A stretch of DNA of 64,000 bases from Deferrisoma camini S3R1 (GTDB lineage Bacteria; Desulfobacterota; Deferrisomatia; Deferrisomatales; Deferrisomataceae), in assembly GCF_000526155.1 (NCBI RefSeq), contig NZ_JAFN01000001.1, forward strand, positions 2,753,014 through 2,817,013, in the 5' to 3' direction. Position 1 is the first letter of the stretch; each line of letters begins with the position of its first letter. A model generated the notes under the pieces. That model saw only the letters and a list, made by a program, of their open reading frames with translations, was not told the origin of the DNA and did not search any database. A program made the position numbers and the translations under genes. Positions 4,050 to 19,014 of this stretch are shown here, in pieces.

Positions 4050-5436
4050 CCCCCTCGAACGCCCGCCGGCCCGGTTCGAGCCGGCCCAGCACCCGGATCC
4101 CATGGGAGTCCACGGCGTAGCGCACGATGTCCCGGGAGTGCTCGATGCCCCGGGCCTTCAGCACCGTGAGGGCCATGCCCAGCCGCCCGTCCTCCTCGAG
4201 GTAGCGCAGGAACACCACATTGTCGGCCACGTGGGAGATGCCCACCCCCGAGATCCGGACGGTGCCGAACAGGTCGCTGGACTCCAGGGTGAGCACCAGG
4301 CTCACCCGGCGGTCCTTGAAGTGCTGAACCAGGGAGTAGGCGAAGGCCAGGTACCGATCGCCCGCGCCGGCCCGCAGGTCGGTCAGGCTGTCCACGGCCA
4401 CCAGCCGGGCCCCGCACGCCTCGGCCCGCCGGGCCACGTCGAGCACGTGGCGGTCGGAGCCCAGCTCCACGGGCGAGGTGTAGAAGAACTCCACCCCGTC
4501 GGAGGGCACCCCCAGCCGCCGGGCGGTCCGGGCGAGCTGGTTGGGGTCCTCCTGGAACGAGACGAACAGGCTGGGCTCGCCCCGCCGGGCCGCCGCGGCC
4601 ACCGCGTGGAGGCAGAAGGTGGTCTTGCCCGCGCCGGGTTCCCCCACGAACAGGGTGGCGGTCCCCTCCAGGAACCCCCCGCCGGTGAGCCGGTCGAGCC
4701 CCTCGACCCCCGTGGAGACCTGCCGGTCCAGGGGCTCGTAGGCGGCCGGACGGGCGGGGGTGGAGGAACGGGGGGCCACCCGGACCCCGGACGCGTCGAT
4801 CCACAGGGGGTGCTCCCCCTCCTGAAACCCCGAGCCCCGCAGCTTGACGACCCGCAGGCTCCGGCGGCCGCTCCGGTCGGGGTCCACCTCGTTGCGCAGG
4901 TATACGATGCCGTCCACCACGCTGGCGGCCACCGTCTCCATCACCTCGCGGTCCCCGTACTCGCCCAGCAGCAGGGTGGTCACGGGCAGGGTGGCCAGGT
5001 GGGCCCCCAGTCGGAACACCAAGGGCCGGTACGCCTGGATCGAGGGGGCCAGGTCGCCGATGGCGCGGAAGCTGTCCACCACCAGGTAGGCCGGCTCGTG
5101 GGCCCGGAGCAGCCGCTCCAGCTCGTCGGCCGCGGCCTCGGCTCCGCGTTCGAGCAGAACCGGGCCCAGGTCGGCGAACCGCACCCGCCCGCCCACCGCA
5201 CCCGGGTCGAAGAACCGGTATCCCTCCAGGTTCCGCAACAGCCGGTCCTGGGGCTCGGACAGGGTCGTGCAGTACAGGCCGGGGGCTTCCTCGGTGGCAT
5301 TTCCGAACAGCCACTGCAGGGCCAGCAGGGTCTTTCCCGTCCCCGCCCGGCCGGCCACCAGCACCAACGATCCGGTGGGAAATCCGCCCTGGATCACCGC
5401 GTCCAGGTGGGGCACGTGGGTGGGCACGCGGGTCAC
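4036..5436 (-). CDS. KaiC-like double RecA-domain ATPase
   Basis: 466 residues with two KaiC domains. CI has Walker A GRAGTGKT (residues 29-36), ILDxxIQGGFPxG before it, and VVDSFRAIGDL as Walker B. CII has Walker A GEPGAGKT (about 265-272) and VAVDSLTDLR. This is the family of RecA-like ATPases that in bacteria other than cyanobacteria usually pair with histidine kinases and receivers rather than KaiA/KaiB; none of the latter are seen here. The acidic pair after each Walker A is reduced to Ser-Glu in CI and Gln-Glu in CII. GTG 5436 overlaps the receiver stop as GTGA and has GGGGAGGAA upstream. The stop overlaps the kinase start, so the three genes form one operon. Confidence 0.88.
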   Translation of the reverse strand: MTRVPTHVPHLDAVIQGGFPTGSLVLVAGRAGTGKTLLALQWLFGNATEEAPGLYCTTLSEPQDRLLRNLEGYRFFDPGAVGGRVRFADLGPVLLERGAEAAADELERLLRAHEPAYLVVDSFRAIGDLAPSIQAYRPLVFRLGAHLATLPVTTLLLGEYGDREVMETVAASVVDGIVYLRNEVDPDRSGRRSLRVVKLRGSGFQEGEHPLWIDASGVRVAPRSSTPARPAAYEPLDRQVSTGVEGLDRLTGGGFLEGTATLFVGEPGAGKTTFCLHAVAAAARRGEPSLFVSFQEDPNQLARTARRLGVPSDGVEFFYTSPVELGSDRHVLDVARRAEACGARLVAVDSLTDLRAGAGDRYLAFAYSLVQHFKDRRVSLVLTLESSDLFGTVRISGVGISHVADNVVFLRYLEEDGRLGMALTVLKARGIEHSRDIVRYAVDSHGIRVLGRLEPGRRAFEGGGGG

Positions 5437-5804
5437 GGGTTCCTCCCCTCTCCCGCCGGGCGGGTCACGAGCCGCCGGGCCAGGTTTCGCAGGTCCCGGT
5501 CGGCCAGGGGTTTCTGCAAGAAAAAGTCCGCCCCCGCCTCCCGGGCCCGGTCGGCCAGCGGCAGGCTCGACACCAGGGCGGCGGGCACGTGCCGGGTCAG
5601 CGGGTGGGCCCGGATCCGCCGGATCAGGGCGAGCCCGTCCAGCACCGGCAGGAGCGCCTCGCACACCAGGGCCGCGGGGGGCTCCCGGAACGCCTTCTCC
5701 AGGGCCAGGGCCCCGTCCGCCACCACGTCCACGGGCCACGGGAGGTCCAAGGCCTGCCACCGCCTCTGCCAGAACGGATCTCTCTCCGCCACCAGGATGC
5801 TCAT
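5433..5804 (-). CDS. Receiver-domain protein with phospho-Asp replaced by Glu
   Basis: A 123-residue single receiver domain. Asp9 supplies the acidic pocket, Ser79/Ser80 sit at the conserved Thr/Ser position and Lys98 is the invariant lysine (LQKPL). At the phosphorylation site, where D-x-x-M-P-x-x-D-G is expected, the sequence is CEALLPVLDG, so Glu49 stands in for the Asp. It should not be phosphorylated normally and may mimic the phosphorylated state. It is the first gene of the receiver-KaiC-kinase operon. The ATG at 5804 has AAGGAAGAGAG upstream; an in-frame upstream ATG at 5831 lacks comparable support. Confidence 0.85.
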   Translation of the reverse strand: MSILVAERDPFWQRRWQALDLPWPVDVVADGALALEKAFREPPAALVCEALLPVLDGLALIRRIRAHPLTRHVPAALVSSLPLADRAREAGADFFLQKPLADRDLRNLARRLVTRPAGEGRNP

Positions 5805-5833
5805 CCACTCTCTTCCTTGCCGAAGGCTCACGG

Positions 5834-5862
5834 AACCAAAGCAGATTTCACCGGTTTGTCAA
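5834..5862 (-). promoter_or_regulatory. Candidate sigma-70 promoter for the receiver-KaiC-kinase operon
   Basis: On the minus strand a perfect TTGACA (5862-5857) is followed after 17 bases by TTGGTT (5839-5834), a weak -10. It lies about 30 bases before the receiver start. The -35 is convincing but the -10 is not. Confidence 0.3.
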
Positions 5863-5991
5863 GGAGAGAACATCGGGCTCGGCCGAACATCATGCCCCAA
5901 AAAGGGGGCCGAAATCGAGGGCCCGCCCATGGTAGAGTAACGGCCGGATCCGGCTCTGCCACGGGGAGACGCAGCGACCCAGGAGAACCCG

Positions 5992-6471
5992 ATGTCCACG
6001 ATCGACGACGTGAAGGCGTTCCTGGCCGCCCGCGGGGTGGAGGTGTGGGAGTTCGACGTTCCCACCCCCACCGCCGAGACCGCGGCCGCGGCCGTGGGAT
6101 GCACCCCGGCCGAGATCGCGAAGACCATCCTGTTCCTGGTGGGCGGCCGGCCCGCCGTGGTGGTGACCTCGGGGGACACCCGGGTCAAGGGCTCCAGGCT
6201 CAAGCAGGCCCTGGGCTGGACCGGCAAGGTGCGGCTGCCCCAGGCGGAGGACGTGCTTCGGTTCACGGGGTACGCCCCGGGGGGGGTGTGCCCGTTCCTG
6301 CTGCCGCCGGACGTGCCGGTCCTGATCGACCGGAGCCTGCGAAGGTTCGAGCGGGTGTACCCCGCCGCCGGCAACGACCGCTCGGCCGTCCCCCTGACCG
6401 TGGACCGGTTGGTCGAGATCACCGGCGGCCGGGAGGCGGACGTGTGCGAGGCACAAGCTCGCACCCCATGA
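5992..6471 (+). CDS. YbaK/EbsC-family aminoacyl-tRNA deacylase
   Basis: A 159-residue single-domain protein of the YbaK/ProX editing fold. The conserved elements are visible: AEIAKTILF in the first third (the Lys that contacts the substrate), then VVTSGD, a LxxALG helix, and GGVCPFLL where the family has the Gly-Gly-x-x-P-F loop. Family members hydrolyse mischarged tRNA such as Cys- or Ala-tRNA(Pro). Which substrate applies here cannot be read from sequence. AGGAG precedes the ATG by 7 bases. It is divergent from the KaiC operon and separate from the aroF-like gene that follows. Confidence 0.85.
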   Translation: MSTIDDVKAFLAARGVEVWEFDVPTPTAETAAAAVGCTPAEIAKTILFLVGGRPAVVVTSGDTRVKGSRLKQALGWTGKVRLPQAEDVLRFTGYAPGGVCPFLLPPDVPVLIDRSLRRFERVYPAAGNDRSAVPLTVDRLVEITGGREADVCEAQARTP

Positions 6472-6531
6472 CGAGAAGGCCCCTTCGGCCCTGGGGGCCC
6501 TACGACGTGCGACGTAACAGGACGCCCTCCC

Positions 6532-6617
6532 GCGGGGGCAAGGGGCCTGCTTCCGGCCGCGCGTGAGCGCAGTATCCGACTCACGCCCGGCGCTCCACCA
6601 GGCCCCTTGCCCCCGGG
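6532..6617. repeat. Short palindromic intergenic element (about 86 bp)
   Basis: Outer arms CGGGGGCAAGGGGCCTG and CAGGCCCCTTGCCCCCG are exact inverted repeats. Inside, CTTCCGGCCGCGCGTGAG and CTCACGCCCGGCGCTCCA pair imperfectly. The inner part matches the ends of the 255 bp elements at 18754 and 37955 (CTTCCGGCC and GGCGCTCCACCAGG), so it looks like a minimal relative of that family. It occupies most of the gap between the YbaK and DAHP synthase genes. Confidence 0.75.
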
Positions 6618-6663
6618 TTGGCGAAAGCCACTTGCCCGGCGGACCGAAGGCCCGACCTCCGCT

Positions 6664-6693
6664 TTGACAACCCACCACCGATTGGGGGATGTT
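6664..6693 (+). promoter_or_regulatory. Candidate promoter for DAHP synthase and the Jet genes
   Basis: A perfect TTGACA at 6664-6669 is followed by GATGTT at 6688-6693 with an 18-base spacer. The -10 is weak. It is the only recognisable -35 before the 6735 start and, because the downstream genes overlap, it could drive the aroF-like gene and JetA-C together. Confidence 0.35.
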
Positions 6694-6734
6694 GGGGGGT
6701 CGCACCGGCCGGGAGATGAGAGGGAGAGATTCGG

Positions 6735-7748
6735 ATGCTGATTGTGATGGACCATTTCGCCTCGCCGGAGCAGGTGGAGGCGGTGTGCCGGCGGATCCGG
6801 GACCTGGGGCTCACCCCCCAGCCGATTCCCGGGGGCGAGCGGGTGGCGATCGGGGTGCTGGGGAACCAGGGGTACGTGGACGAGGCCCCGTTCCGGGACC
6901 TGGAGGGCATCCGCGAGTTCATCCACGTCACCAAGCCCTACAAGCTGGTGAGCCGCGACTTCCACCCCGAGGACACCGTGGTGCGGGTGGGGCCCGTGGA
7001 GATCGGGTGGAGCCGCGACCCCGTGGTGATCGCCGGACCCTGCGCCGTGGAGAGCGCCGAGCAGGTGCGGGCCGCGGCCCGGGCCGTCAAGGCGGCCGGG
7101 GCCCACCTGATGCGCGGGGGCGCGTTCAAGCCCCGGACCGGCCCCCACTCGTTCCAGGGGCTGGGGTACGAGGGGCTCGACCTCCTGGCCGAGGCGGCCC
7201 GGGAGGCGGGCCTGCCGGTGGTCACCGAGGTGATGCGGATCGACCAGCTGGAGAAGGTGGCCGAGGTGGCCGACTGCGTGCAGATCGGGGCCCGCAACAT
7301 GCAGAACTTCGACCTGCTCAAGGAGGCGGGTCGGGCCGGCAAGCCCGTTCTGCTCAAGCGGGGCATGAGCGCCACCCTGGACGAGTTCCTGGCGGCCGCC
7401 GAGTACATCCTGCTCGAGGGGAACGAGCAGGTGATCCTGTGCGAGCGGGGCATCCGCACCTTCGAGCGGGCCCTCAGGAACACCCTGGACCTGGCCGTGG
7501 TGCCCTACCTGCGCGCGGCCACCCACCTGCCGGTGATCGTGGACCCCAGCCACGCCCTGGGCCGGCGGAGCCTGGTGCCGCCCATCGCCAAGGCGGCGTT
7601 CCTGGTGGGGGCGGCCGGGATCATGGTGGAGGTCCACCCCGACCCCTGCCGGGCCCTGTGCGACGGGCCCCAGTCCCTGGACTTCCCCACGTTCACCCGC
7701 CTGATGGCCGAGCTCGACCGGGTGGGCCGGCTGAGGGGGGGTGGGTGA
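6735..7748 (+). CDS. aroF: 3-deoxy-7-phosphoheptulonate (DAHP) synthase, type I-beta
   Basis: 337 residues. It condenses phosphoenolpyruvate and erythrose-4-phosphate in the first step of the shikimate pathway. The first 70 residues form a ferredoxin-like regulatory domain (MLIVMDHF...), as in Thermotoga-type enzymes that are feedback-controlled by aromatic amino acids. The TIM barrel follows, with IAGPCAVES (Cys103, metal ligand), GAFKPRTGPHSFQG, LKRGMSAT, DPSHALG (His273) and VEVHPDP. Length and order are standard. AGGGAGAG lies before the ATG. Its TGA overlaps the GTG of JetA, which couples a housekeeping biosynthetic gene to a defence locus. Confidence 0.93.
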   Translation: MLIVMDHFASPEQVEAVCRRIRDLGLTPQPIPGGERVAIGVLGNQGYVDEAPFRDLEGIREFIHVTKPYKLVSRDFHPEDTVVRVGPVEIGWSRDPVVIAGPCAVESAEQVRAAARAVKAAGAHLMRGGAFKPRTGPHSFQGLGYEGLDLLAEAAREAGLPVVTEVMRIDQLEKVAEVADCVQIGARNMQNFDLLKEAGRAGKPVLLKRGMSATLDEFLAAAEYILLEGNEQVILCERGIRTFERALRNTLDLAVVPYLRAATHLPVIVDPSHALGRRSLVPPIAKAAFLVGAAGIMVEVHPDPCRALCDGPQSLDFPTFTRLMAELDRVGRLRGGG

Positions 7749-9376
7749 GGCCGGACGTGGACGCGTCCGAGGTCCTCCGCCGGCACCCCTACCTCCGGGA
7801 CCACGCCGACCGGTGCCGGTCGGTGCTGGTGTTCTACCCCGTGCTGCGGCTGCTGTCCCGGTTCTACGGCGACGACATCGCCGAGGGCAACCGGGGGTTC
7901 ACCGTGGCCATGGCGATCCTGGCCCACGTGTGCGAGTGCATGCTCACGGGCCGCGGCGGCGCCACCCACCGGGAGCTGCTGGATGCCCTCACCCCCCTGG
8001 TGCTCGGCCAGGCCCGGGCCGAGGGCCGGGAGATGGGGCGGGGCGACGCCGAGGCCCTGGTGGCCCGGGTGCTCAACGAGCTCCAGAACTCCGGCGAGAT
8101 CTTCCGCACCGAGTTCTTCGACTTCGCCTCGGGCCGGACCGTGACCCACGCGTTCCGGATCCTGGAGGCCGAGGCGTCCCGGGAGCGCGGGGCCTACAAG
8201 CTCAAGCTCACCCCAGCCGGCATCGACCTCTTTTTCCGGCTCAAGGAGGTGTACGGCGCCCTCGACACCGACATGGAGCGCCTGTTCCTGGAGCACCAGG
8301 TCAAACGGGGGTGCTACGCCGAGGCCGGCCGGGTGGTGGACACCCTGCTGCTCAAGATCACCCAGGCCCAGGAGCGCCACCGGGAGCTCAGGGGCAAGCT
8401 CCGGTCCAACCCCGGCGAGGTCTCGGCCGAGGAGATCGAGTACTTCGGCGAGGTGGTGGCCGACCGGCTCCGGGAGGAGAAGGAGCACTTCGCCCGCATC
8501 CGCGACCTGATCGAGGGGCAGATGCGCACGCTCCTGCGCCAGGTCCGCCGGAAGGGCCCCACCGACCCCGTGGTCCGCGACAACCTGGCCGCCCTCCGGG
8601 AGCTCCAGGCCGGCACGGCCCGGATCGTGGACCGCCACAACGTGTTGTTCGCCCTGAACACCGAGCTGCGCCGGGAGTTCCGGCGGCTCAAGCTGGGGCT
8701 GCTGACCTTCACCCCCACCCTTCGCCGGCTCCCCATGGAGACCGAGGTGCTCGACCCGGTGCTCCGCAAAGGGCCCGGGCTCGACGAGGTCCACCGGTTC
8801 CTGGGCCCCCTGCTGGGGCCCCGCCGGCCCCGGTGGTTCCACCTGGCCCACGCCTTTCCGCCCCCGCCCCAGACCCGCGACGCCCCGGGCGAGGCGTTCC
8901 TGGCCGACCCCTGGGCCGACCCCGAGTGGACCGCCCGGGAGCGCCGCCGCCTGGAGCGGCTCGTCGGCCACCTGCGGGCCCTGCTGGCCTACCTGTGGAG
9001 CCGGCCCGACGGCCGGGGCGACCTGGAGGGCCTGGCGGCCCACGACGTGCCCGCCCGGCCCGTGGTGGACGAGACCGGCCGGGTCGTGGCGGAGGAGCCG
9101 GTGTGCCTGATGGACATGGACGCGGCCGAGACCCGGGGGTTCCTGCGGTTCCTGCTGTGGCTCCACAACCGGGGCCGGATCGCCCTGCGGGGGGCCGAGA
9201 CCCGGGAGGCGTTCGACCGCCTCGTGGCCGAGGAGCCCGAGTGGGCCGGGGCCGAGGAGGTCCGGGTGCGGGCCCTGCCCGGATGGACGCGGGTGGGCGA
9301 CAACCGGGCCCGGCGCTTGGGGTTCGAGCTGGTGCGGGCGGGGGACCGCCCGCAGGAGGAGGCCGTGGATGCCTGA
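7745..9376 (+). CDS. jetA: Wadjet JetA-like protein (kleisin/MksF-type subunit)
   Basis: 543 residues, soluble. I recognise it mainly by position: first of a contiguous A-B-C-D set with a MukB-like SMC third and a toprim nuclease last. The helical N-terminus contains CRSVLVFYPVLRLLSRFYGDD. The middle has a long coiled-coil stretch (about 180-300) with EKEHFARIRDLIEGQMRTLLRQVRRK, and the C-terminal winged-helix-like part ends ALRGAETREAFDRLVAEE. In Wadjet/MksBEFG systems JetA is the kleisin bridging the SMC heads. GTG 7745 overlaps the aroF stop; the stop overlaps the JetB ATG. Subtype is not assigned: a profile search would be needed to separate types I-III. Confidence 0.72.
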   Translation: MRPDVDASEVLRRHPYLRDHADRCRSVLVFYPVLRLLSRFYGDDIAEGNRGFTVAMAILAHVCECMLTGRGGATHRELLDALTPLVLGQARAEGREMGRGDAEALVARVLNELQNSGEIFRTEFFDFASGRTVTHAFRILEAEASRERGAYKLKLTPAGIDLFFRLKEVYGALDTDMERLFLEHQVKRGCYAEAGRVVDTLLLKITQAQERHRELRGKLRSNPGEVSAEEIEYFGEVVADRLREEKEHFARIRDLIEGQMRTLLRQVRRKGPTDPVVRDNLAALRELQAGTARIVDRHNVLFALNTELRREFRRLKLGLLTFTPTLRRLPMETEVLDPVLRKGPGLDEVHRFLGPLLGPRRPRWFHLAHAFPPPPQTRDAPGEAFLADPWADPEWTARERRRLERLVGHLRALLAYLWSRPDGRGDLEGLAAHDVPARPVVDETGRVVAEEPVCLMDMDAAETRGFLRFLLWLHNRGRIALRGAETREAFDRLVAEEPEWAGAEEVRVRALPGWTRVGDNRARRLGFELVRAGDRPQEEAVDA

Positions 9377-10232
9377 GCACACCACCGACACCCTGCCCAT
9401 CGGCGCCGTGCGCACGGCCCTACGCGCGTTCCGCCGGCTGCTGACCCAGGGGCAGATCACCGAGCGCGATCCCGAGCTCCTCAACGCGGTGCTGGCCGAC
9501 GCCCGGGTGGGCGAGGTGCTCGCCGTGCTCGAGGAGGAGTTCGAGGTGCGCATCCTCCGGGGCCGCAGCCGGGTGGACCTCTCGCCCGACCCGGACAACC
9601 GGGAGCTGGGGTACCGGCTCACCGACCTGCGGGACCGGTTCGGCGACCGCACCGGCTCGGCCTACCTGGTGATGCTGGGGCTCCTGGCCCTGTTCTTCCG
9701 ATCGGGCAACTTCCGGGTACCCGACTACGACTACGTGGAGGTGTTCGACCTGGAGGAGTACCTGACCCGCAAGGCCCGGGCCGTGGTGGAGCGGCAGGGG
9801 GAGGCCCGGGCGGTGGAAGAAGCCGTGGGCACCCGGGTGTTCGAGCCGTGCCGCGAGTGGCTGAGCCGCGAGAAGTACAAACAGGGCCCGGGGTACCGGT
9901 CGACCCGCTACTCGGTGATCAAGGCGGTGGTGGGATTTCTGGCCGAGCAGGGCCTGGTCCACCGGGAGGCCACCGTGGGGGAGAACGAGCGGATCTACCC
10001 CACCGACAAGCTCAAGGCCCAGGCCGAGGCCCTGGCCCTGGACGAGCGCTACGCCGCCATGGCCGCGCTCCTGTCCGGCGACGACGAGGCCCTGGAGCCG
10101 TGGGCGTCCCGGGCCGAACCGGCGGAAGAGCCCGAGCCGGAGCCGCCCCACCGCCCCCGCAGACGCCGCAGGAAGGCGGCCGCGGACCCCAAGCCCAAGG
10201 TGCTCGACCTGTTCGGAGATCCAACCCGATGA
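9369..10232 (+). CDS. jetB: Wadjet JetB-like protein (kite/MksE-type subunit)
   Basis: 287 residues. The N-terminal 200 residues form a helical, tandem winged-helix-like domain with VDLSPDPDNRELGYRLTDLR and EYLTRKARAVVE. The last 50 residues are a Pro/Glu then Arg/Lys-rich tail (PHRPRRRRRKAAA) that may contact DNA. The gene lies between JetA and the SMC subunit, where the small MukE/MksE-like kite protein belongs. It overlaps both neighbours: it starts 8 bases inside JetA, and its TGA overlaps the JetC ATG as ATGA. Assignment depends on context plus a loose resemblance to DUF6063/DUF4194-type JetB proteins. Confidence 0.68.
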   Translation: MPEHTTDTLPIGAVRTALRAFRRLLTQGQITERDPELLNAVLADARVGEVLAVLEEEFEVRILRGRSRVDLSPDPDNRELGYRLTDLRDRFGDRTGSAYLVMLGLLALFFRSGNFRVPDYDYVEVFDLEEYLTRKARAVVERQGEARAVEEAVGTRVFEPCREWLSREKYKQGPGYRSTRYSVIKAVVGFLAEQGLVHREATVGENERIYPTDKLKAQAEALALDERYAAMAALLSGDDEALEPWASRAEPAEEPEPEPPHRPRRRRRKAAADPKPKVLDLFGDPTR

Positions 10233-13200
10233 GCCGGATCCGCCGTATCCGCGTCGTCAACGTGGGCCACGAGGACGCCTACTACCCCGACCTCGTGCTG
10301 GAGTTCCACGGCGAGGACACCCTGGTGTGCCTGGCCAACGGCGGCGGCAAGACCACCCTGCTGCACCACGTGCTCCAGGTGGTGCGGCCCGGGGCCCAGA
10401 TCGATCGTCGGCGCATCGGCGACTACTTCGGGGGCCGGCGCCGCACCGTGCACGTGGCCATCGAGTTCATCCTGGACGAGAGGGCCGGAGGGCTGCTGCG
10501 GGACGACCCGCCCCTGCTCCTCGCGGGGGTGTGCTTCGAGAACCGGGGGACCGACCGGGGCCTGGACCGGCTCACCTACACCTGCGAGTACCCGGCGGGC
10601 CTGGTGGACCGGGTGGAAGGCCGGGGGCTGGTGCACGCCGGCGATCCCCCCACCCTGGGCACCCTGCCCCTCACCGTGGGCGAGGACGGCTCCCGCCGGG
10701 TGGCCACCCTGCGGGAGCTGCGCCAGGCCCTGCGGGAGGGCGGTCAGGTCAGCCTGTACCGGGCCGACCAGGCCCGGGAGTACGAGGAGAAGCTGCGCAG
10801 CTTCCACATCGAGCGGGAGACCTGGGAGGGCATGGTCCGGATCAACCGGGTGGAGGGCGGCCTCAAGCACTACTTCGAGACGGTGAACACCGTGGAGAAG
10901 CTGGTGCGCGAGCACTTCCTGCCCGCGGTGCTCGACCCGGACGAGGAGGCCAACCTGCGCGAGGCCGTGCGCCAGATCGCCGAGAGCGCGGCCGAGCTGC
11001 CCCGGCTCGAGGCCGAGGTGCGGCTGTGCGAGGCCTACCTGGACCACTTCGGCCGGCTCCGCCAGGCGAGCGCCGAGCTCCACGAGGCCGAGCTCCGGCA
11101 GGCAGACCTGGGCCGTCGGGTGGCGGACCGGGCGGCCCGCATCGAGGCCACGGCCGCGGCGGCGGCCTCCCGGGTGAGCCGGGCCGCCCAGGCCCTGGAG
11201 GAGGCCGAGGCCGCCCACTTCGAGGCCAAGGCCCGAAGGGGCGCGTTCGTCCGGCTCCGGGCCCTGCGGGACCTGGAGGCCCTTCGGGAGGCCGAGGCCC
11301 GCGCGGCCGACGCCCTGGATGCGGCCCGGGCCGAGGAGGACCGGTGCCAGGCGGACCTGCGGCGGGTCGACGCGCTGGACCTCGCCGTGGCCAACCTGAG
11401 GGACCGGGCCCGGATCGAGGCGCTGGAGGAGAAGCGGCGGCTCCTCCTCCAGGGCCACGAGGAGAAGGAGGCGGCGTGGCGCACCGCGGCCGGTCTGGCG
11501 GCCGGCGCGGCCCGGCGGGTGCTGGCCGGCCTGGAGGACGAGCGGGCCGCCCTGGAGACGCGCCGCGCCGAGGTGTCCCGACGCGCCGAGGCCGCCCGGG
11601 CCCGGCGGGCCGAGCTGGAGCAGGAGCGGGCCGGCCAGGCCGAGGCCCTGGGCCGAAACCGGGAGCGCCTGCGGGCCGGGGACGAGGAGCTCCGGGCCCT
11701 GGAGCCCCTGCTCCAGGGCCGGGCGGTTCCCGAGGCCCTGGCCGAGCTGCGAACCGACGCCGACCGGGAGCGCGCCCGGGCGGACCGGCTCGAGGGCGAG
11801 GCCCGCGAGGTCCGGTCCCGGGCCGACGAGGCCCGGGCTCGGGCGGCCGAGGCCCGGGAGCGGGCGGCCCGCTCGGAGACCGAGGCGGCCGCGTGGCAGG
11901 AGAGGCTGGACGCCCAGGCCGAGGCGGTGGAACGGATCGGCCCGGTCCTGGCCCGGTGGGGCTGCCAGCCCGACCTGCCGTACCGGGAGCGCGACAGCGC
12001 CCTTCGGGCCGTGGAGGAGGCCGTGGCCGACCGCAGGGACCGGCTCCTCGAGGCCGAGGCCCTGCGCTCCCGGGCCGAGCGGGAGCAGGCCTTCGCCCGG
12101 GACGAGGGGTTTCCCCTGCCGACCGAGGACCTGCTGCGGGTGCGCGACGCCCTGGCCCGGGCCGGCATCCCCACCGAGCCCGGATCCCGCTGGCTGCTGC
12201 ACGCGCCCCCGGCCTCGCGGGACGCCGTGGTGGCGCGGTGGCCGTTCGCGCCCTACGCCCTGGTGGCCGAGGGCCGGGCCGCGTGGCACGCGTTCCTGGA
12301 GCGGGGCGCCGAGGTGCTGCGCGCCCTGGACCTGCGGGCGCCGGTGCCGGTGGTGTCCCAGGGCCTGCTGGACCGCACCCTGGCCGAGGCCGCCGCGTTC
12401 GAGCCCGCCACCGGCCGCATCGTGGAGCTCTCGGAGGGCGCCGCGTTCCCCCTGCCCGAGGCGGCGGCCCCGTTCTGGGACCCCGATGCCTTCGCGAGCC
12501 TTCGGGCCCGGGCCGAGGAGCTCGCGGCCGAGGCGACCGCAGACCTGGACCGGGCGCGCCGGGCGTGGGAGGCGGCCCTCCAGGACCGGGACACCCTCCA
12601 GGAGTTCTACCGCCGGTTCCCCGAGGAGGAGGCGGGCGCCTGGCGCACCGCCCTGGAGGACGCCCGGGCCACGGCCCGCGAGGCCCGGGCCGACGCCCTC
12701 CGGGCCGGGGAGGAGGCCGAGGCCTGCGCGAGCCGGGCGGACGAGCTCCTGGAGCAGGCCCGCGCGGCTCGGGAGCGGGCCCGGGAGCAAGACGCCGCGG
12801 CCGCCCGGCTCGAGGCGTACTGGGACCGCCACGGCCGCCACCGCCCGGCCCTGGAGCGTCAGATCCGGGCGGCCCAGGACGCCCTGGCCCGCCTGGAGCG
12901 GGAGGCCGGGGAGCTGGCCGCCGAGCTCCAGGCCTTGGAGGCCGAGCACACCGCCTTGGAGCTCAGAGCCGCGGCCCTGGATCGGGAGGCGGCCGACGTG
13001 CGGGCCGTGCTCGCGGAGCTGGGCGGGGCGGAGCCCATGGAGCCCCCGGCCGAGGCCGGCCTGCCCGAGCTGCTGGCCCGGGCCCGGGCCGCCCGGGAGG
13101 CCCTGCACTCCCAGGCCCGGGAGGTGGGGGGCATCGACGACCAGGTGCGAACGCTCCTCGGCCACATCGACGAGCGCGCCGCTCGGATCCGACGGTTGGG

Positions 13201-14710
13201 GGTGGGGGAGCCGCCCCGCGACGAGGTGACCCGGGCGGCGTCGGCCTGGGACCCGGACGGGGCCCGCCGTCCGGTCCTGGCCCGGCTGGAGCAGGCCCGG
13301 GCGGCCGTGGAGCGCGCCCGGCAGGCCCTCGAGGAGGCTCGAGCCGCGGTGGCGGCGGCCGAGCGCGACGACGCCGTGGAGCGGGGCCGGTTCCAGGAGC
13401 GCTACGGCCGGCCGCCCGAGGCGTTCCAGGAGCCCGGGTGGCAGGACCTGCCCCGGGACGAGGAGGTGGGGTTCCAGCGTACCCTGCAGATGGCCGTGGC
13501 CCGGGCGGCCCGGGCCGAGGCGAGGGCCCGGGCCGGGCTGGACGAGGCCCGCCGGTTCCTGGAGGGGGCCGAGCACGCGGCGGATCGGGCCCGGGTGGTG
13601 CGGGCCGCCTGCGGCCTCGAAGCCGGGGCCGAACCCGGCGAGCCCTTGGACGCCGGGGCCCTGGATGCGGCCCTCTCCGACCTGGAGACGGCCGGGGACG
13701 AGCTCGGATCGGTACAGGCCAAGGCCCACCAGGCCTCGTCCCGACGGGACAAGGCCCTGGCCGCGTTCGTGGAGTTCCTGCGGACCGACGCGGCCCGGCT
13801 CGCCGGCCGGCTCCACCTGGTGGCCGAGGACGCCGAGACCGCCCTCACCACCCACGAGGGCGTGGAGCACTACTGGCAGGCCCACTCCAAGGCGGTGGAG
13901 GACCTGCGCCGCAGCGCCCTGGCCGAGAAGGAGAAGCTCGAGAAGGAAAAGGAGGACATCGCCGCCCGGTGCGCCGGGTTCGCCCGCCACCTGGCCGACG
14001 AGATCCGCTCGATCCAGCGGTACTCCACCGTGCGGTTTGGGGGCGGCGCGTCCCGGAGACTTTTGCAGGTGGACCTGGCCCTGCGGGACGAGGCCGCGGC
14101 CCTGGCCGAGATGCAGGCGTTCGTCCAGCGGTTCGTGGAGCTGTACTCGGCTGCGCCCGAGGCCGACCGGGCCGGGCTCGCGGCCCGCTCCGTGACCGGG
14201 TTCGAGCTGCTCGGGGTGGTTTGCCGGCTGGACCGGGCGCGGGTGCGGATCTTCAAGCCCAAGACCCCCGGCGCGCCGGCCCGGTACTCGGACTGGGAGG
14301 AGGTGCGGGCCTGGAGCGGGGGCGAGAAGCAGGTGGCCTGCTACCTCCTGTTCGTGGCCACCCTGACCTACGCCACCTACCGGGCCGCCGGCCGGGACGA
14401 CGCCACCAAGGTGCTGCTGCTGGACAACCCGGTGGGCGAGGCCAGCTCGGCCCACCTGCTCCGGATCATGGTGGAGCTGGCCCGGGAGAACGCGATCCAG
14501 CTCATCGTGCTCACGGCGCACCAGGACCCGGGCATCTGGAAGTACTTCCGCAACCTGGTGAGCCTGGTGCCGGTGCCCACCTCCCGCCGGACCTACGTCC
14601 AGCTCGACCGGGACACCATGGAGGCGTTCCGGGCCAACTTCGAGCTGGAGGAGGCCACCTTGCTCACCGCCCCCAACCGGGACTGGGAGGAGGACTTCCC
14701 GGAGGGGTGA
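10229..14710 (+). CDS. jetC: Wadjet JetC-like SMC ATPase (MukB/MksB-type)
   Basis: 1493 residues. Walker A NGGGKTT lies at about 37-43. An Arg/Glu/Ala-rich coiled coil fills about 250-620 and 755-1290. A globular hinge-like section (about 625-755, with PPASRDAVVARWPFAPYALVAEG) separates the two arms. The ABC signature WSGGEKQ is at about 1362-1368 and Walker B KVLLLDNPVGEAS at about 1394-1406, followed by the switch histidine in LTAHQ. This is the architecture of an SMC-family loop-extruding motor. In Wadjet the JetABC complex extrudes plasmid DNA and signals JetD to cut small circles. The ATG overlaps the JetB stop; the stop is followed by 148 bp before the toxin-antitoxin pair. Confidence 0.85.
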   Translation: MSRIRRIRVVNVGHEDAYYPDLVLEFHGEDTLVCLANGGGKTTLLHHVLQVVRPGAQIDRRRIGDYFGGRRRTVHVAIEFILDERAGGLLRDDPPLLLAGVCFENRGTDRGLDRLTYTCEYPAGLVDRVEGRGLVHAGDPPTLGTLPLTVGEDGSRRVATLRELRQALREGGQVSLYRADQAREYEEKLRSFHIERETWEGMVRINRVEGGLKHYFETVNTVEKLVREHFLPAVLDPDEEANLREAVRQIAESAAELPRLEAEVRLCEAYLDHFGRLRQASAELHEAELRQADLGRRVADRAARIEATAAAAASRVSRAAQALEEAEAAHFEAKARRGAFVRLRALRDLEALREAEARAADALDAARAEEDRCQADLRRVDALDLAVANLRDRARIEALEEKRRLLLQGHEEKEAAWRTAAGLAAGAARRVLAGLEDERAALETRRAEVSRRAEAARARRAELEQERAGQAEALGRNRERLRAGDEELRALEPLLQGRAVPEALAELRTDADRERARADRLEGEAREVRSRADEARARAAEARERAARSETEAAAWQERLDAQAEAVERIGPVLARWGCQPDLPYRERDSALRAVEEAVADRRDRLLEAEALRSRAEREQAFARDEGFPLPTEDLLRVRDALARAGIPTEPGSRWLLHAPPASRDAVVARWPFAPYALVAEGRAAWHAFLERGAEVLRALDLRAPVPVVSQGLLDRTLAEAAAFEPATGRIVELSEGAAFPLPEAAAPFWDPDAFASLRARAEELAAEATADLDRARRAWEAALQDRDTLQEFYRRFPEEEAGAWRTALEDARATAREARADALRAGEEAEACASRADELLEQARAARERAREQDAAAARLEAYWDRHGRHRPALERQIRAAQDALARLEREAGELAAELQALEAEHTALELRAAALDREAADVRAVLAELGGAEPMEPPAEAGLPELLARARAAREALHSQAREVGGIDDQVRTLLGHIDERAARIRRLGVGEPPRDEVTRAASAWDPDGARRPVLARLEQARAAVERARQALEEARAAVAAAERDDAVERGRFQERYGRPPEAFQEPGWQDLPRDEEVGFQRTLQMAVARAARAEARARAGLDEARRFLEGAEHAADRARVVRAACGLEAGAEPGEPLDAGALDAALSDLETAGDELGSVQAKAHQASSRRDKALAAFVEFLRTDAARLAGRLHLVAEDAETALTTHEGVEHYWQAHSKAVEDLRRSALAEKEKLEKEKEDIAARCAGFARHLADEIRSIQRYSTVRFGGGASRRLLQVDLALRDEAAALAEMQAFVQRFVELYSAAPEADRAGLAARSVTGFELLGVVCRLDRARVRIFKPKTPGAPARYSDWEEVRAWSGGEKQVACYLLFVATLTYATYRAAGRDDATKVLLLDNPVGEASSAHLLRIMVELARENAIQLIVLTAHQDPGIWKYFRNLVSLVPVPTSRRTYVQLDRDTMEAFRANFELEEATLLTAPNRDWEEDFPEG

Positions 14711-14808
14711 GGGATGAAGAACCTCGCGATCAGCGCGGTCCTCCGGGGGCAGGCCCCCTCCTCTCCGAGCAGGGAGGTGTGCGTGCCTATCTTTTGCGGA
14801 CCGACAAC

Positions 14809-14837
14809 TTGACCATGGTCATTGACCACTTTAGACT
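14809..14837 (+). promoter_or_regulatory. Sigma-70 promoter of the Phd-PIN pair
   Basis: TTGACC (14809-14814) and TAGACT (14832-14837) are separated by exactly 17 bases. The predicted transcript start is about 14 bases before the antitoxin ATG. This gives the toxin-antitoxin pair, and probably JetD behind it, a promoter independent of the aroF-JetC operon. Confidence 0.6.
14810..14821. promoter_or_regulatory. Palindromic operator TGACCATGGTCA
   Basis: A perfect 12-base palindrome covers most of the -35 and the start of the spacer, and a partial copy (TTGACCA) follows within the spacer. Phd/YefM antitoxins repress their own promoters through such palindromes, so this is the expected autoregulation site. 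The binding itself is inferred. Confidence 0.55.
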
Positions 14838-14858
14838 CCCCCGTACCGGAGGGCGGTC

Positions 14859-15101
14859 ATGGAGACCATCGGGATCTCGAAGTTCAAGGCCACGTGCCTC
14901 GCGGTGCTCGAAAGAGTTCGGCGCACCGGGAAGCCCGTTCTGATCACGCGCAGGGGGGAGCCGGTGGCCGAGGTCGTGCCTCCGCCCCCCCGGACCGGGG
15001 GGGTCTCGTGGCTCGGTGCGATGCGCGGAACCGGGCGGATCGTCGGCGATGTGGTCTCCCCCGCCGGCGAGGAGGAGGACTGGGAGGCCCTCTCCCCGTG
15101 A
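14859..15101 (+). CDS. Phd/YefM-family antitoxin
   Basis: 80 residues. The N-terminal half, METIGISKFKATCLAVLERV then RTGKPVLITRRGEPVAEVVP, matches the Phd/YefM DNA-binding fold. The C-terminal half is acidic (GEEEDWEAL), the part that folds onto and blocks the toxin. GGAGG lies before the ATG. The TGA overlaps the GTG of the PIN toxin, the usual coupling. The pair sits between the JetC and JetD-like genes rather than outside the defence locus. Confidence 0.88.
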   Translation: METIGISKFKATCLAVLERVRRTGKPVLITRRGEPVAEVVPPPPRTGGVSWLGAMRGTGRIVGDVVSPAGEEEDWEALSP

Positions 15102-15493
15102 GGTTGCTCCTCGACACCCATATCTTCCTATGGAGCCTGCTCGAACCGGAACGGCTGGGCGGCCGGATCGCGGCCGAGCTGGAGAACCCGGACAACGAGC
15201 TGTGGCTCTCGTCGATCAGCGTGTGGGAGATCCTGGTGCTCGCGGAGAAGGGGAGAATCCAGCTGGACCAGGACCCGCCCGCCTGGATCCACACGGCCCT
15301 CAAGAAGGTCCCGATCCGAGAGGTCCCGGTGGACCACGAGGTGGCGATCCACAGCCGCCTTGTCGACCTGCCCCACGACGATCCTGCGGACCGGTTCCTG
15401 GCCGCCACCGCCCGGGTCCGCAACCTGACCCTGGTCACCGCCGACCGGCGCCTGATCGGCGCAGCCGGTTTCGAGGTGCTGCCCAACCGGTGA
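15098..15493 (+). CDS. PIN-domain ribonuclease toxin
   Basis: 131 residues of the PIN-domain toxin group that is normally paired with Phd antitoxins. All four acidic catalytic positions are present: Asp6 (LLLDTH), Glu44 (SVWEI), Asp98 (PADRF) and Asp116 (VTADRRL). It should therefore be an active Mg-dependent RNase when free of antitoxin. The start is GTG 15098 overlapping the antitoxin stop. The JetD-like gene begins 53 bases after its stop, so JetD expression may depend partly on the antitoxin-controlled promoter. Confidence 0.9.
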   Translation: MRLLLDTHIFLWSLLEPERLGGRIAAELENPDNELWLSSISVWEILVLAEKGRIQLDQDPPAWIHTALKKVPIREVPVDHEVAIHSRLVDLPHDDPADRFLAATARVRNLTLVTADRRLIGAAGFEVLPNR

Positions 15494-15546
15494 GGCCGTT
15501 TCCCACAGGGAGGATCCTTCCCGACCCTCGAGGTTCGCCGCCCCGG

Positions 15547-16650
15547 ATGAAGGCCCCAGCAAGCAGAGAAAACGAGATCCGGCAAGCCGCCGAGGCGTTC
15601 CTGTCCGCGGTCGAGCGGGCCAGGCGCCGCACGTTCGCCCTGGCCGACCTGGAGGCCCACGTGCAGGCCGCCCTGGGGCCGGAGGCCTACGTGGAGGCCG
15701 GGGAGTACCAGGCCTTGGCCGCGGTGGTGCAGGCCCTGGTGGACGAGGATCGCATCGCCCCCATCCGAGCCCGGGGCCCCAACGGCCGCAACCCGCCCCT
15801 GTACCGCGGCTACCGGCTGGCGCCGGCCCGCCCCCCCGAGGCGCCCGCCGCGGATCTGGTGGGCCAGCACCCCCGCATCGACCGGGCCGGGCTCCGGCGC
15901 CTGGGCGGCCAGGACGCCGGCATGGTGCGGGCCGTGTCCGAGTACCTGTTCGCCCACCCCGGCCGCTCGGACCGGCCGGCGGTGCCCCGCAACGAGCGAA
16001 GCCTCGAGATCTTCGGGGACGAGAAGTTCCTGGAGAGGCGCCCCGGGTTCCTCCGGGCCCTGGGCCTCGAGCCCGCCGACATCCACGCCCTGGAGGTGCG
16101 CGAGCCGTTCTTCCACCGGCGGTTCGACCCGCCCGGGCCCGAGGCGTTGGTTCTGGAGAACCTGGCCACGTTCTGGTCGGTGTGCCGGGTGCTGGAGTCG
16201 GAGGCCGCCTGGCGATGGGGTCCCCGGCCGGCCCTGGTGATCTACGGCGAGGGCAAGAAGATCCTGCGGTCCATCGGGTTTCTGGAGGTCTTTCCCGAGG
16301 TGGAGCGGGTGGCCTACTTCGGCGACCTGGACCCGGAAGGGGTCGGGATCCTGGCGGGGCTGCGCGAGCGGGAGCCCCGATGCGTGCCGGCCGAACCGCT
16401 CTACCGGGGGCTCCTCCGGCAGCAGCGCCGGGCCCGGCCGCTCAAGCGAGCCCCCGGCCGGGTCGATGGGAAGGAGGCGTTCGCCGGGTGCGGGGATCTG
16501 GCGGAACGGGTGGAGGATCTGTTCGCCCGGGGACGGTGGCTCCCCCAGGAGGCCCTGGGGCTGGAGGCGCTTCTTGGAGATGTACCTGGGAAGCCCTGTC
16601 AGGCCCCTTCGGGGCCGTCTAGAGACTGGAAACTAGAGACTAGAAACTAG
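15547..16650 (+). CDS. jetD: Wadjet JetD-like toprim nuclease
   Basis: 367 residues. The N-terminal 110 residues look like a winged-helix arm. The middle has PRNERSLEIFGDEKFLE. The toprim fold follows, with Glu204 (ALVLENLATF), LVIYGEGKK, and Asp260/Asp262 in YFGDLDPEGVGI, which are the metal-binding residues of the topo VI-like JetD nuclease that cleaves small circular DNA. It is the fourth Jet component but is separated from JetC by a Phd-PIN pair. The last nine codons (RDWKLETRN and TAG) lie inside a 7-base tandem repeat at 16618-16650, so the original C-terminus seems to have been replaced or extended. ATG 15547 is the only sensible start. Confidence 0.83.
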   Translation: MKAPASRENEIRQAAEAFLSAVERARRRTFALADLEAHVQAALGPEAYVEAGEYQALAAVVQALVDEDRIAPIRARGPNGRNPPLYRGYRLAPARPPEAPAADLVGQHPRIDRAGLRRLGGQDAGMVRAVSEYLFAHPGRSDRPAVPRNERSLEIFGDEKFLERRPGFLRALGLEPADIHALEVREPFFHRRFDPPGPEALVLENLATFWSVCRVLESEAAWRWGPRPALVIYGEGKKILRSIGFLEVFPEVERVAYFGDLDPEGVGILAGLREREPRCVPAEPLYRGLLRQQRRARPLKRAPGRVDGKEAFAGCGDLAERVEDLFARGRWLPQEALGLEALLGDVPGKPCQAPSGPSRDWKLETRN

Positions 16651-16830
16651 GGAAATCTTAGAGACCTCGGTCCGTGAGGCGGGCGGCCGTCTCGCCATGC
16701 CCCTGCCCCCCGGACCGTGTGTCAGGTGAAGGCGAAGAGGTGTGGTGGTGCCTAGAACGTGCGGGAATCCGGAGGATTTTCAAGCCTTCTAGCCTCCTAG
16801 CCTTTGCGCTGCCCAGCGGGCCGAAGGCCC
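16618..16830. repeat. Composite repeat element with heptamer ends and GGGCCGAAGGCCC hairpin
   Basis: The left edge is an array of 7-base units (AGACTGG, AAACTAG, AGACTAG, AAACTAG) at 16622-16650. The right edge is TTCTAGCCTCCTAGCC at 16787-16802, followed by the hairpin GGGCCGAAGGCCC at 16818-16830. The right edge is the reverse complement of the unit array at 24877-24916, so the edges form an imperfect inverted repeat around about 130 bp. The 16651-16860 gap holds nothing else that I can see. Confidence 0.55.
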
Positions 16831-16860
16831 TGACCAACGACCGAACTGGGAGGACCGAGC

Positions 16861-17607
16861 ATGATCGCACGCGTGGCAACGATGGCCTTGGCGGCCTGCA
16901 TGGTCTGGGCCGGAACGGCAGGGGCCTTCGAGGTGGGGGCCCGGGCCGCCTACTGGATTCCCCAGCTCTCCGGTGACGTCCGGCTCGACGACGGCACCCG
17001 GGGCGACACCCTGGACTTCACCGACGACCTCGGGGTGGACGACGAGAGCTTCTTCTTCGGCGATGCCTGGCTGTGGATCGGGGATCACCACCTGATCCTG
17101 TCCGGCACCCGGGTGGACTACTCGGGCACGAAGACCCTCGCCGGGGTGACGTTCGGGGGCAGGACCTTCACGGGTCGCACCGACGCGTCCCTCGAGTACA
17201 CCCAGCTCGATCTGGCGTACCGGTACGACCTGATCGACCTGGAGAACCTTCTGGCGGGGTTCTCCCTGGGGCCCCAGGTCCAGGTGAAGTACCTGGACGG
17301 CGAGGTGCGGCTCGAGACGACGGGGGTGGAGGAGTCCCAGTCGTTCCAGATCCCCATCCCCCTGGCGGGGGTTGGAGGTCACCTGGGCATCCTGGCCGAT
17401 CTCTTGGAGGTGCGGGCCCAGGCCGTGGGCATGGGGTACCGGGGGAACACGATCGTGGAGGCCTCGGCCGAGGTCTCGTACAACCCCATCCCGTTCGTCG
17501 AGCTCGTGGCCGGGTACCGGTACTTCCGGATCGACGTGGAGGCGGACGACCTCACCCTGGACTACCGGCAGGCCGGCCCCTACGTGGGGATCGGGGCGAA
17601 GCTCTGA
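16861..17607 (+). CDS. Predicted outer-membrane beta-barrel protein
   Basis: 248 residues beginning with a typical signal peptide (MIARVATMALAACMVWAGTAGA, cleavage before FEVGARAAYW). The mature part is a run of amphipathic strands with aromatic girdle residues, such as YTQLDLAYRYDLIDL, VELVAGYRYFRIDV and DYRQAGPYVGIGAKL. That layout suggests an 8-10 strand barrel. No specific family motif is recognised, so transport or structural roles cannot be separated. GGGAGGACC precedes the ATG, just downstream of the GGGCCGAAGGCCC repeat edge. The next gene starts 11 bases after its stop. Confidence 0.6.
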   Translation: MIARVATMALAACMVWAGTAGAFEVGARAAYWIPQLSGDVRLDDGTRGDTLDFTDDLGVDDESFFFGDAWLWIGDHHLILSGTRVDYSGTKTLAGVTFGGRTFTGRTDASLEYTQLDLAYRYDLIDLENLLAGFSLGPQVQVKYLDGEVRLETTGVEESQSFQIPIPLAGVGGHLGILADLLEVRAQAVGMGYRGNTIVEASAEVSYNPIPFVELVAGYRYFRIDVEADDLTLDYRQAGPYVGIGAKL

Positions 17608-17617
17608 CGGGGGCCCC

Positions 17618-17986
17618 GTGGAGGTCGTGATCGCGGGCCAGCCCCGGGAGGTGGACGACCTGATCTGCGCCGGGCCCGGGCTCCTGGCCGACGACCCGGA
17701 CAAGACCGGGGTGGTGCGCCGCTGGGGCCGTTCGGGCCCCCGGGACCACCTGGCCGCCGTGCAGACGGCCCGGCTCCTCGTGGAGGAGTACCCCGAGGAC
17801 TGCCTGCCCCTGGCCCCGGGGATCCGCGGGCCCGGGGGGGAGGACGCGGCCGACGCGATCCTGGCGGTGGCCCGGGCCCAGGGGCGGGTGCTGGTGTGGA
17901 CCCGGCTGGATCCGGAGCAGACCCAGGCCGCCCTGGCTCGGCTCGAGCGGTACCTCACCCGGCTCGTGCGCCTCGACACGCCGTAG
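17618..17986 (+). CDS. Hypothetical small protein
   Basis: 122 residues from GTG 17618, beginning VEVVIAGQPREVDDLICAGP. It reads as a compact alpha/beta protein with acidic and Arg-rich helices and ends ALARLERYLTRLVRLDTP. No membrane segment, signal or known motif is visible. The start is weakly supported by a GGGGG run; no ATG is available in frame. Third-position GC and composition fit coding. It follows the outer-membrane gene closely and may be cotranscribed with it. Confidence 0.5.
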   Translation: MEVVIAGQPREVDDLICAGPGLLADDPDKTGVVRRWGRSGPRDHLAAVQTARLLVEEYPEDCLPLAPGIRGPGGEDAADAILAVARAQGRVLVWTRLDPEQTQAALARLERYLTRLVRLDTP

Positions 17987-18001
17987 CCGGCGCCCCCCGG
18001 G

Positions 18002-18643
18002 TCACACCCCCCGGTCCCGGCCGGGCCACAGGATGCGGTGGAGCTGCACCTGGAGGCGGGCGTCCAGGCGGTCGGCGAGCATCCACCGCGCCAGTTCGGC
18101 CGGGTCGAGGCGGCCCCACACGGGCGACAGGCTCACCCGCACCCGGCCCCACAGGTTTCGGCGGGCGATCTCGGCCACGGCCCAGTCGTAGTCGGCCCGG
18201 TCGGCGCACACCACCTTGATCTCGTCCCCCGGGCCGAGCCGCTCCAGGTTCTCCCACCGGTTCCGATCCACCATTCCCGATCCCGGGGTCTTCAGGTCCA
18301 TCACGATGTGCACCCCAGGGGGTACGGGCTCCAAGGGCAGGCTGCCGTTGGTCTCGAGCAGCACCCGTCGGCCGGCCTCGAGCAGGGCCTCCAGCAGGGC
18401 CGGCGCCCCCGGCTGGCACAGCGGCTCCCCGCCGGTGACCTCCACCGTGCCCTGCCCCTCCCGGTCCACGGCCCGGAGCACCTCCTCCACCCCCATGGGG
18501 GTTCCCCCTTCCCAGGCGTAGGCGGTGTCACAGTAAGAGCAGCGCAGGTTGCACCCGGCCAGCCGCACGAAGGTGCAGGGGTACCCCGCCCAGTGGGACT
18601 CGCCCTGGATGCTGGAGAAGATCTCGATCACCTTCAGTTCCAC
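18002..18643 (-). CDS. queE: 7-carboxy-7-deazaguanine synthase QueE (radical SAM)
   Basis: 213 residues. QueE converts 6-carboxytetrahydropterin into the deazaguanine core of queuosine/archaeosine-type bases. The N-terminus VELKVIEIFSSIQGESHWAG is the QueE substrate-binding opening. C31-x3-C35-x2-C38 (CNLRCSYC) is the radical-SAM 4Fe-4S site, and VTGGEPL binds SAM. The length fits the short-type QueE. The start codon is GTG at 18643 with AAAGGTG upstream. No other queuosine gene is in the window. Confidence 0.92.
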   Translation of the reverse strand: MELKVIEIFSSIQGESHWAGYPCTFVRLAGCNLRCSYCDTAYAWEGGTPMGVEEVLRAVDREGQGTVEVTGGEPLCQPGAPALLEALLEAGRRVLLETNGSLPLEPVPPGVHIVMDLKTPGSGMVDRNRWENLERLGPGDEIKVVCADRADYDWAVAEIARRNLWGRVRVSLSPVWGRLDPAELARWMLADRLDARLQVQLHRILWPGRDRGV

Positions 18644-18656
18644 GGGGCACCTTTCG

Positions 18657-18705
18657 TCTCGGGCCCTCGGCCCGCTGGAAAGCTGGAAAGCCGGGAAGCT
18701 GGGAC
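18657..18705. repeat. Octamer repeat with GGGCCCTCGGCCC hairpin
   Basis: A GGGCCCTCGGCCC hairpin runs directly into GCTGGAAA, GCTGGAAA, GCCGGGAA, GCTGGG, the same units as at 24877-24916. It lies upstream of queE between that gene and the 255 bp element. The 18644-19014 gap holds only this and the next element. Confidence 0.55.
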
Positions 18706-18753
18706 AATTCGGTCGACGGTCGGGACCTTCAGCCTGCTCGGCGGCTATTACTC

Positions 18754-19008
18754 CAAACGAAAGGGATTGCCAGGCCCGTGCCTCCTTCCCCTTGGGGAGT
18801 ACGGGGTGGGGGTCTGGTGGAGAGCCGGGCGCGGCCCCTTAGCTCGCCGCGCCCTCCGAACGTCCGGATCGCCTCAGGATCCCAAGGTTTCCGCTATCGT
18901 GGTCTGGATCGACGGGCAAACGGCGGCATGAGAAGGCGCGGCGATCGGATGCCGCACTCGCGCCCGGCCGGAACCAGGCCCCCACCCCGTACTCTGGCAA
19001 TCCGTTTG
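18754..19008 (+). repeat. MITE-like 255 bp palindromic element, copy 1
   Basis: The element begins CAAACG, ends CGTTTG and has long imperfect terminal inverted repeats. The left end, GGATTGCCAG...GTACGGGGTGGGGG..CTGG..CGGGCGC, matches the reverse complement of the right end. A second copy lies in inverse orientation at 37955-38207. It has no coding capacity, so mobilisation would need an enzyme in trans. Its right edge lies 7 bases from the DUF294 gene stop. Confidence 0.75.
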
Positions 19009-19014
19009 TTACTA

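Follow-up and report, generated by a model that had tools for sequence, protein, structure and literature searches.

A type III Wadjet locus of Deferrisoma camini with a Phd-PIN toxin-antitoxin pair between jetC and jetD

Wadjet is a defence system in which a JetABC motor and the JetD nuclease together cut small circular DNA, as published work on the family describes. We analysed one Wadjet locus in a stretch of 64,000 nucleotides (nt) of Deferrisoma camini S3R1 (contig NZ_JAFN01000001.1, positions 2,753,014 to 2,817,013 of the forward strand), referred to here as the window, from a genome that is a single contig of 4,236,551 bases (G000). Positions 7745-16650 of the window hold six co-oriented genes in the order jetA, jetB, jetC, phd, PIN and jetD, with a toxin-antitoxin (TA) pair lying between the gene for the SMC-like ATPase and the gene for the nuclease. 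This order had been proposed in a first-pass annotation made from the letters alone; it is borne out in the window and recurs in a second genome. The features are as follows.

7745 to 9376, + strand: jetA (type III), GTG start; from open reading frames and PADLOC.
9369 to 10232, + strand: jetB (type III; DUF6063); from PADLOC and Pfam.
10229 to 14710, + strand: jetC, SMC-like ATPase; from PADLOC and motifs.
14809 to 14837, + strand: sigma-70-like site TTGACC-17-TAGACT; from a promoter scan.
14810 to 14821, + strand: perfect palindrome TGACCATGGTCA within the sigma-70-like site, a candidate Phd operator; from a palindrome search.
14859 to 15101, + strand: phd antitoxin, 80 amino acids; from Pfam and NCBIfam.
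15098 to 15493, + strand: PIN (VapC-like) toxin, 131 amino acids, 4-nt overlap with phd; from Pfam and residues.
15547 to 16650, + strand: jetD, toprim nuclease, 367 amino acids; from PADLOC and residues.

The reading-frame coordinates make jetB overlap jetA and jetC overlap jetB. A profile search with PADLOC agreed with the proposed Wadjet identity and matched all four Jet proteins as type III, with best E-values of 1.5e-40 (JetA3), 7.3e-32 (JetB3), 2.8e-52 (JetC3) and 7.6e-57 (JetD3), in one locus whose C and D genes are separated by two others. Pfam families were found above their cut-offs for JetB (DUF6063, 76.8 bits, cut-off 27) and JetD (JetD_C, 31.9 bits, cut-off 22); JetC matched SbcC_Walker_B alone, below the cut-off (21.9 against 27), and JetA matched no Pfam family. 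The two intervening genes also proved to be what they had been called, the antitoxin matching PhdYefM of Pfam (40.4 bits, cut-off 29.8) and TIGR01552 of NCBIfam (34.8, cut-off 20.8) and the toxin matching PIN of Pfam (55.4 bits, cut-off 23.6). The antitoxin was the one protein of the locus that NCBIfam named, PIN, JetA and JetD having no match there. Among solved structures there was none for JetD to an E-value of 1 and none for the PIN toxin to 0.01, and Phd gave five weak matches (best E-value 0.023). Rfam at gathering scores found nothing within 5000-20000.

The motifs expected of active proteins are present, as had been claimed, and all parts of the locus look functional. JetC carries SGGEK at residues 1363-1367, LLLDN at 1396 and a Walker A motif, LANGGGKT, that was read directly in the translation and that the automated Walker A pattern missed. 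In an alignment of JetD from the window with 48 of the 54 loci of our JetD scan, Glu204 is kept in 48 of the 48 rows with a letter, and Asp260 and Asp262 in 49 of 49. The four acidic residues of PIN are similarly conserved when the window protein is aligned with 16 of 19 PIN matches (D6, E44 and D95 in 17 of 17 rows, D116 in 16 of 17).

The start of jetD may be the ATG at 15547 or an alternative GTG at 15490, in a 4-nt overlap with the PIN stop; the longer form finds no support in constraint, since positions 15490-15546 read as codons differ between the window and its closest relative by one synonymous and three nonsynonymous changes. At its other end (window 16575-16650) jetD runs into a CTAGAGACTAGAAACTAG-type stretch, and JetD residues 344-367 match a second site in the genome (G000:C1:1603509-1603580). 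In the closest relative jetD ends earlier, at a TAG that is TGG in the window.

JetD is present in 4 of the 59 genomes searched, the window genome included. The closest relative, locus L006 in a congener (G001), has the identical six-gene order, with 98% identity in JetC, 100% in Phd, 98% in PIN and 96% in JetD; we could thus rule out a chimeric or misassembled window and consider an assembly artefact unlikely, because the order recurs in a separate assembly. Locus L007, in a Deferrisomatales bacterium of the sister genus (G003), lies on a contig that ends within jetC and reads the last 124 jetC codons, 18 nt and then jetD, with the pair absent. Because the sister genus has this uninterrupted jetC-jetD junction, the pair is a lineage-specific insertion and not a general feature of Wadjet design. 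By the comparison of these loci, it entered once the sister genus had split off but before the window and L006 parted.

The junctions of the insert give limited information on how it arrived. The two ends of the insert, at 14712 and 15545, both carry GGATGAAG; as a target-site duplication it is suggestive only, given that 11% of random stretches of the same length share an 8-mer. Direct and inverted repeats in 14705-14870 amount to two short direct families. The synonymous difference between the window and L007 is 0.147 +- 0.036 in the jetC tail (123 codons), 0.270 +- 0.026 in jetD (347 codons) and 0.343 +- 0.029 in a DAHP synthase gene (327 codons) that precedes jetA in the window. The lower value of the jetC tail hints at separate histories, as if jetD had been replaced along with the pair; it covers 123 codons only, and we do not claim such a replacement.

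A third relative, the 4.2-kb contig L024 of another congener (G002), carries what is left of a similar locus. It matches the window up to position 7760, through the DAHP synthase gene and into the very start of jetA, with 96.7% nucleotide identity over 1102 bases; the next 0.3 kb or so contains a decayed piece resembling phd (window 14918-15098, 73% identity in 185 columns), and the contig then matches window 16427-18678 at 90.7%, from the last 70-odd jetD codons through the downstream genes. PIN and most of jetD are missing, and G002, whose genome is about 81% complete, gave no JetC match. L024 1540-2055 has the look of a deleted-Wadjet scar between the DAHP synthase gene and the conserved downstream genes. 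The pair was probably already present before L024 parted, and appears from these remains to have been lost together with Wadjet in this one species. The survival of the phd piece beyond the toxin would fit a loss in which the toxin went first; the piece may also come from a different phd, because at 73% identity it is more diverged than its flanks. In PMC12287153, JetD is the DNA-cleaving toprim nuclease of Wadjet, and a mutant of C. cellulovorans is described with a spontaneous deletion taking in Wadjet genes.

How rare the arrangement is was examined over a wider collection of loci. From 133 pattern matches the JetD scan yielded 54 loci. Of these, 49 showed a neighbouring jet gene, and the five with none (L010, L024, L029, L033 and L045) were dropped. 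Further JetD3 searches, from each of which only the best loci were taken, matched 13 of 395 genomes in the phylum of the window (mostly weakly), 107 of 398 in the phylum of L025, 18 of 390 in the order of L047 and 24 of 380 in the phylum of L054, and a general JetD_C search matched 15 of 297 genomes, of which 12 loci were taken. Profiles built from the first set were used to judge 89 further loci (65, including the 12 from JetD_C, plus 24). A neighbouring jet gene was recognised in 35 of these, and removal of 11 duplicates left 24 new loci, making 73 distinct type III loci besides the window; the other 54 were mostly weak JetD3 matches, probably Wadjet of types I and II, and are uninformative either way.

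Among these 73, L006 alone has a TA pair placed between jetC and jetD; it is also the only one of 17 loci with the C-D order to do so. The first-pass annotation had held that the jet genes are contiguous in known loci. This stands insofar as jetD lies no more than 150 nt from a neighbouring jet gene in 69 of the 73; adjacency of jetC and jetD themselves, however, is found only in the minority with the A-B-C-D order, since jetD comes directly before jetA in 36 of the 49 judged loci of the first set. The four wider gaps are those of L006 (305 nt when measured from an upstream in-frame start, and containing the same pair), L025 (798 nt), L052 (356 nt) and L158 (200 nt). The gap of L025 holds a DUF2442/DUF4160 insert; those of L052 and L158, read in all six frames, showed no convincing gene, the one exception being an in-frame start of L052 jetD. 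The L052 gap, in Desulfoluna, separates jetC and jetD at 7104-7461. Among loci L201-L224, the largest upstream frame lies at most 81 nt from jetD in 20 of the 24, L208, L210, L220 and L224 being unjudged. A widespread Wadjet variant is thus ruled out, the arrangement having been seen only in two congeners and one remnant, and no TA pair between jetC and jetD was met in the literature searched, which covered few subscription journals and no bioRxiv preprints. The window locus is a Wadjet operon with a TA insertion that is rare and restricted to one lineage, a variant of a known system.

From the usual type III Wadjet (JetABCD; PADLOC JetA3-JetD3), which it resembles in its four profile matches and its intact toprim and ATPase motifs, the locus differs by the two extra genes and by an A-B-C-D order where most judged loci place jetD first. 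The pair itself resembles Phd-PIN (VapBC-like) type II modules in having the antitoxin first, a 4-nt overlap, the acidic residues and an upstream promoter-like site with a palindrome, and differs from them in having a defence nuclease gene within 53 nt or overlapping. The nearest parallel in our collection is the type III Wadjet of Desulfosporosinus lacus (L025), which also has a two-gene insert, DUF2442 plus DUF4160, inside the operon; that insert, however, comes from other families and stands antisense, between jetD and jetA. Its DUF4160 gene scored 73.9 bits against the NCBIfam TA toxin DhiT, below the cut-off of 100. The DUF2442/DUF4160 pair lies at 9180-9772 within L025 9070-9876, flanked by 23-nt copies at 9070 and 9847 that differ by one mismatch, the right copy standing just before the predicted jetA start. 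A toxin domain is joined to an SMC protein in the SMC-HicA fusions, likened by their authors to Wadjet and Lamassu (PMC10865869); those are protein fusions with HicA, whereas in the window Phd and PIN are genes of their own within a jet operon.

The two genes of the pair appear to be under purifying selection. Both frames are open in the window genome and in L006, and the pair differs between them by six synonymous changes and one nonsynonymous change (P = 0.0019 under equal rates, assuming 73% nonsynonymous sites and ignoring transition bias). Third-position guanine-plus-cytosine content is 0.90 in phd, 0.92 in PIN and 0.90 in jetD, against 0.98 in the DAHP synthase gene and jetA, 0.97 in jetC and 0.94 in jetB.

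Transcription of jetD is the point at which the pair could touch the defence function. A scan of both strands over 7500-16900 found one sigma-70-like site (shuffles gave a mean of 0.1), which ends 21 nt before phd. The palindrome TGACCATGGTCA has one exact match in the window, where 0.05 were expected with up to one mismatch. No promoter-like or terminator-like site was found in the scan between PIN and jetD. The coupling of jetD to the antitoxin that had been proposed is plausible and gains circumstantial support, because the only promoter-like site precedes phd and contains a palindrome while none lies between PIN and jetD; we infer that the site works as a promoter, that Phd binds the palindrome and that jetD is read from there. 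The first-pass annotation had set this coupling against a one-off insertion next to an independently transcribed jetD. The first half of that alternative holds, the pair being a single lineage-specific insertion by the comparison with L007, and the second half finds no support, as the scan showed no promoter-like site for jetD itself.

Our favoured reading, held with somewhat better than even confidence, is that of an intact type III Wadjet with a Phd-PIN pair inserted at the jetC/jetD boundary, in which part of JetD transcription probably comes from the phd promoter. On arrival, in the interval between the sister-genus split and the separation of the window and L006, the pair would have supplied its own promoter with a palindromic operator. 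The nuclease gene would now be the third cistron of phd-PIN-jetD, with jetABC following the DAHP synthase gene, and the simplest reading would be an autoregulated phd-PIN-jetD transcript on top of jetABC read-through. Purifying selection would maintain the pair as an ordinary TA module, selfish or stabilising, and the partial transfer of JetD transcription would be its main consequence for defence.

Several observations weigh against this reading. On the + strand no terminator-like hairpin was found between jetC and jetD, and the genes are co-oriented, so that jetD may be supplied by read-through from jetABC in any case. The sigma-70 scan likewise gave no site over 5800-7800, ahead of both the DAHP synthase gene and jetA; since it misses the promoter that drives these genes, its silence elsewhere is weak evidence. 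A copy of TGACCATGGTCA with one mismatch lies inside PIN, at 15426-15437. The candidate operator is without independent conservation, because the 13 of 142 collected loci that contain TTGACCATGGTCA are all this locus in the window genome or in G001. Of 28 further Phd matches examined in G000-G003, eleven have a palindrome (arms of at least 5, at most 90 nt upstream), a count made without a chance control, and none of these is TGACCATGGTCA. Finally, L006, L007 and L024 are all metagenome-assembled.

The same read-through would serve an explanation in which the pair is a neutral passenger, Wadjet is unaffected, jetD is transcribed from jetABC and the pair is kept only because loss of the antitoxin alone is toxic. 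We regard this as a real possibility that probably does not hold. Phd family matches are common in these genomes (13 in G000, 8 in G001, 6 in G002 and 3 in G003, at an E-value of 0.001 or better) and the arrangement is confined to one genus among the loci judged, which speaks for a passenger; on the other hand, the distance from the jetC stop to the jetD start has grown to 836 nt, against 18 in the sister genus, and the sole promoter-like site found sits in the insert.

A stronger form of coupling would be a Phd-gated Wadjet, in which the nuclease, separated from its motor, is placed under the autoregulated promoter of the antitoxin, and degradation of Phd upon stress or plasmid entry induces PIN and JetD together. 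We think this rather doubtful.

To our knowledge, no link exists between the Jet proteins and the stability of Phd, which counts against a further possibility, that the pair stabilises the Wadjet locus as an addiction module by killing cells that lose it. The pair is intact, inside the operon and apparently under purifying selection, which speaks for a guard. Yet L024 shows that loss of the locus can be survived, though the toxin may have gone first, and the earlier suggestion that the pair punishes loss of the defence locus is weakened by this species, where a decayed piece of phd and the tail of jetD are all that is left. We consider a guard of this kind improbable. The model for it is CreTA, reported as a CRISPR-Cas addiction module (PMC12737573, PMC9458426), which is likewise a TA module linked to a defence locus; CreTA differs in being RNA-based, with a toxin repressed by Cascade.

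Relatives of the PIN toxin were found in 12 of the 59 genomes, that of the window included. Among 72,556 plasmid records 345 carry a relative, in no case with an identity as high as 60%; the best (52.5%) belongs to pAQ3, a plasmid of 16 kb, and is overlapped on its upstream side by a gene of 231 nt. None was found among 50,697 phage records. The window Phd matches one plasmid record at an E-value of 1e-5, and JetD matches six, none covering 80% of the protein. A plasmid origin of the pair is possible. An anti-addiction role, in which the resident Phd neutralises the toxin that remains once the locus has cut a plasmid carrying such a relative, is very improbable, since with a single plasmid match for Phd cross-neutralisation is unlikely for most plasmids.

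Upstream, jetA is preceded by the DAHP synthase gene, called aroF-like (NCBIfam 475 bits, cut-off 335). The jetA GTG overlaps its stop codon by 4 nt (GTGA; window 7741-7760), an overlap that may couple translation of the defence operon to that of a gene for amino-acid biosynthesis. In G003 the DAHP synthase finds its best match (84%) on another contig than the jet genes, and the surrounding 4.0 kb contain no match to jet genes, phd or PIN; as this gene lacks jet neighbours, the Wadjet of G003 seems to be placed elsewhere.

Together, these loci provide a natural case of a nuclease gene behind a TA pair with its own promoter-like site. A sister locus free of the pair and a decayed one serve as comparisons, and the set makes it possible to test directly whether a TA module can assume the regulation of a defence effector. 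Were the pair a passenger only, the locus would, with the L025 insert, document the entry of TA pairs into a defence operon without breaking its genes. If Wadjet were gated by Phd, an always-armed plasmid cutter would have become a conditionally armed one.

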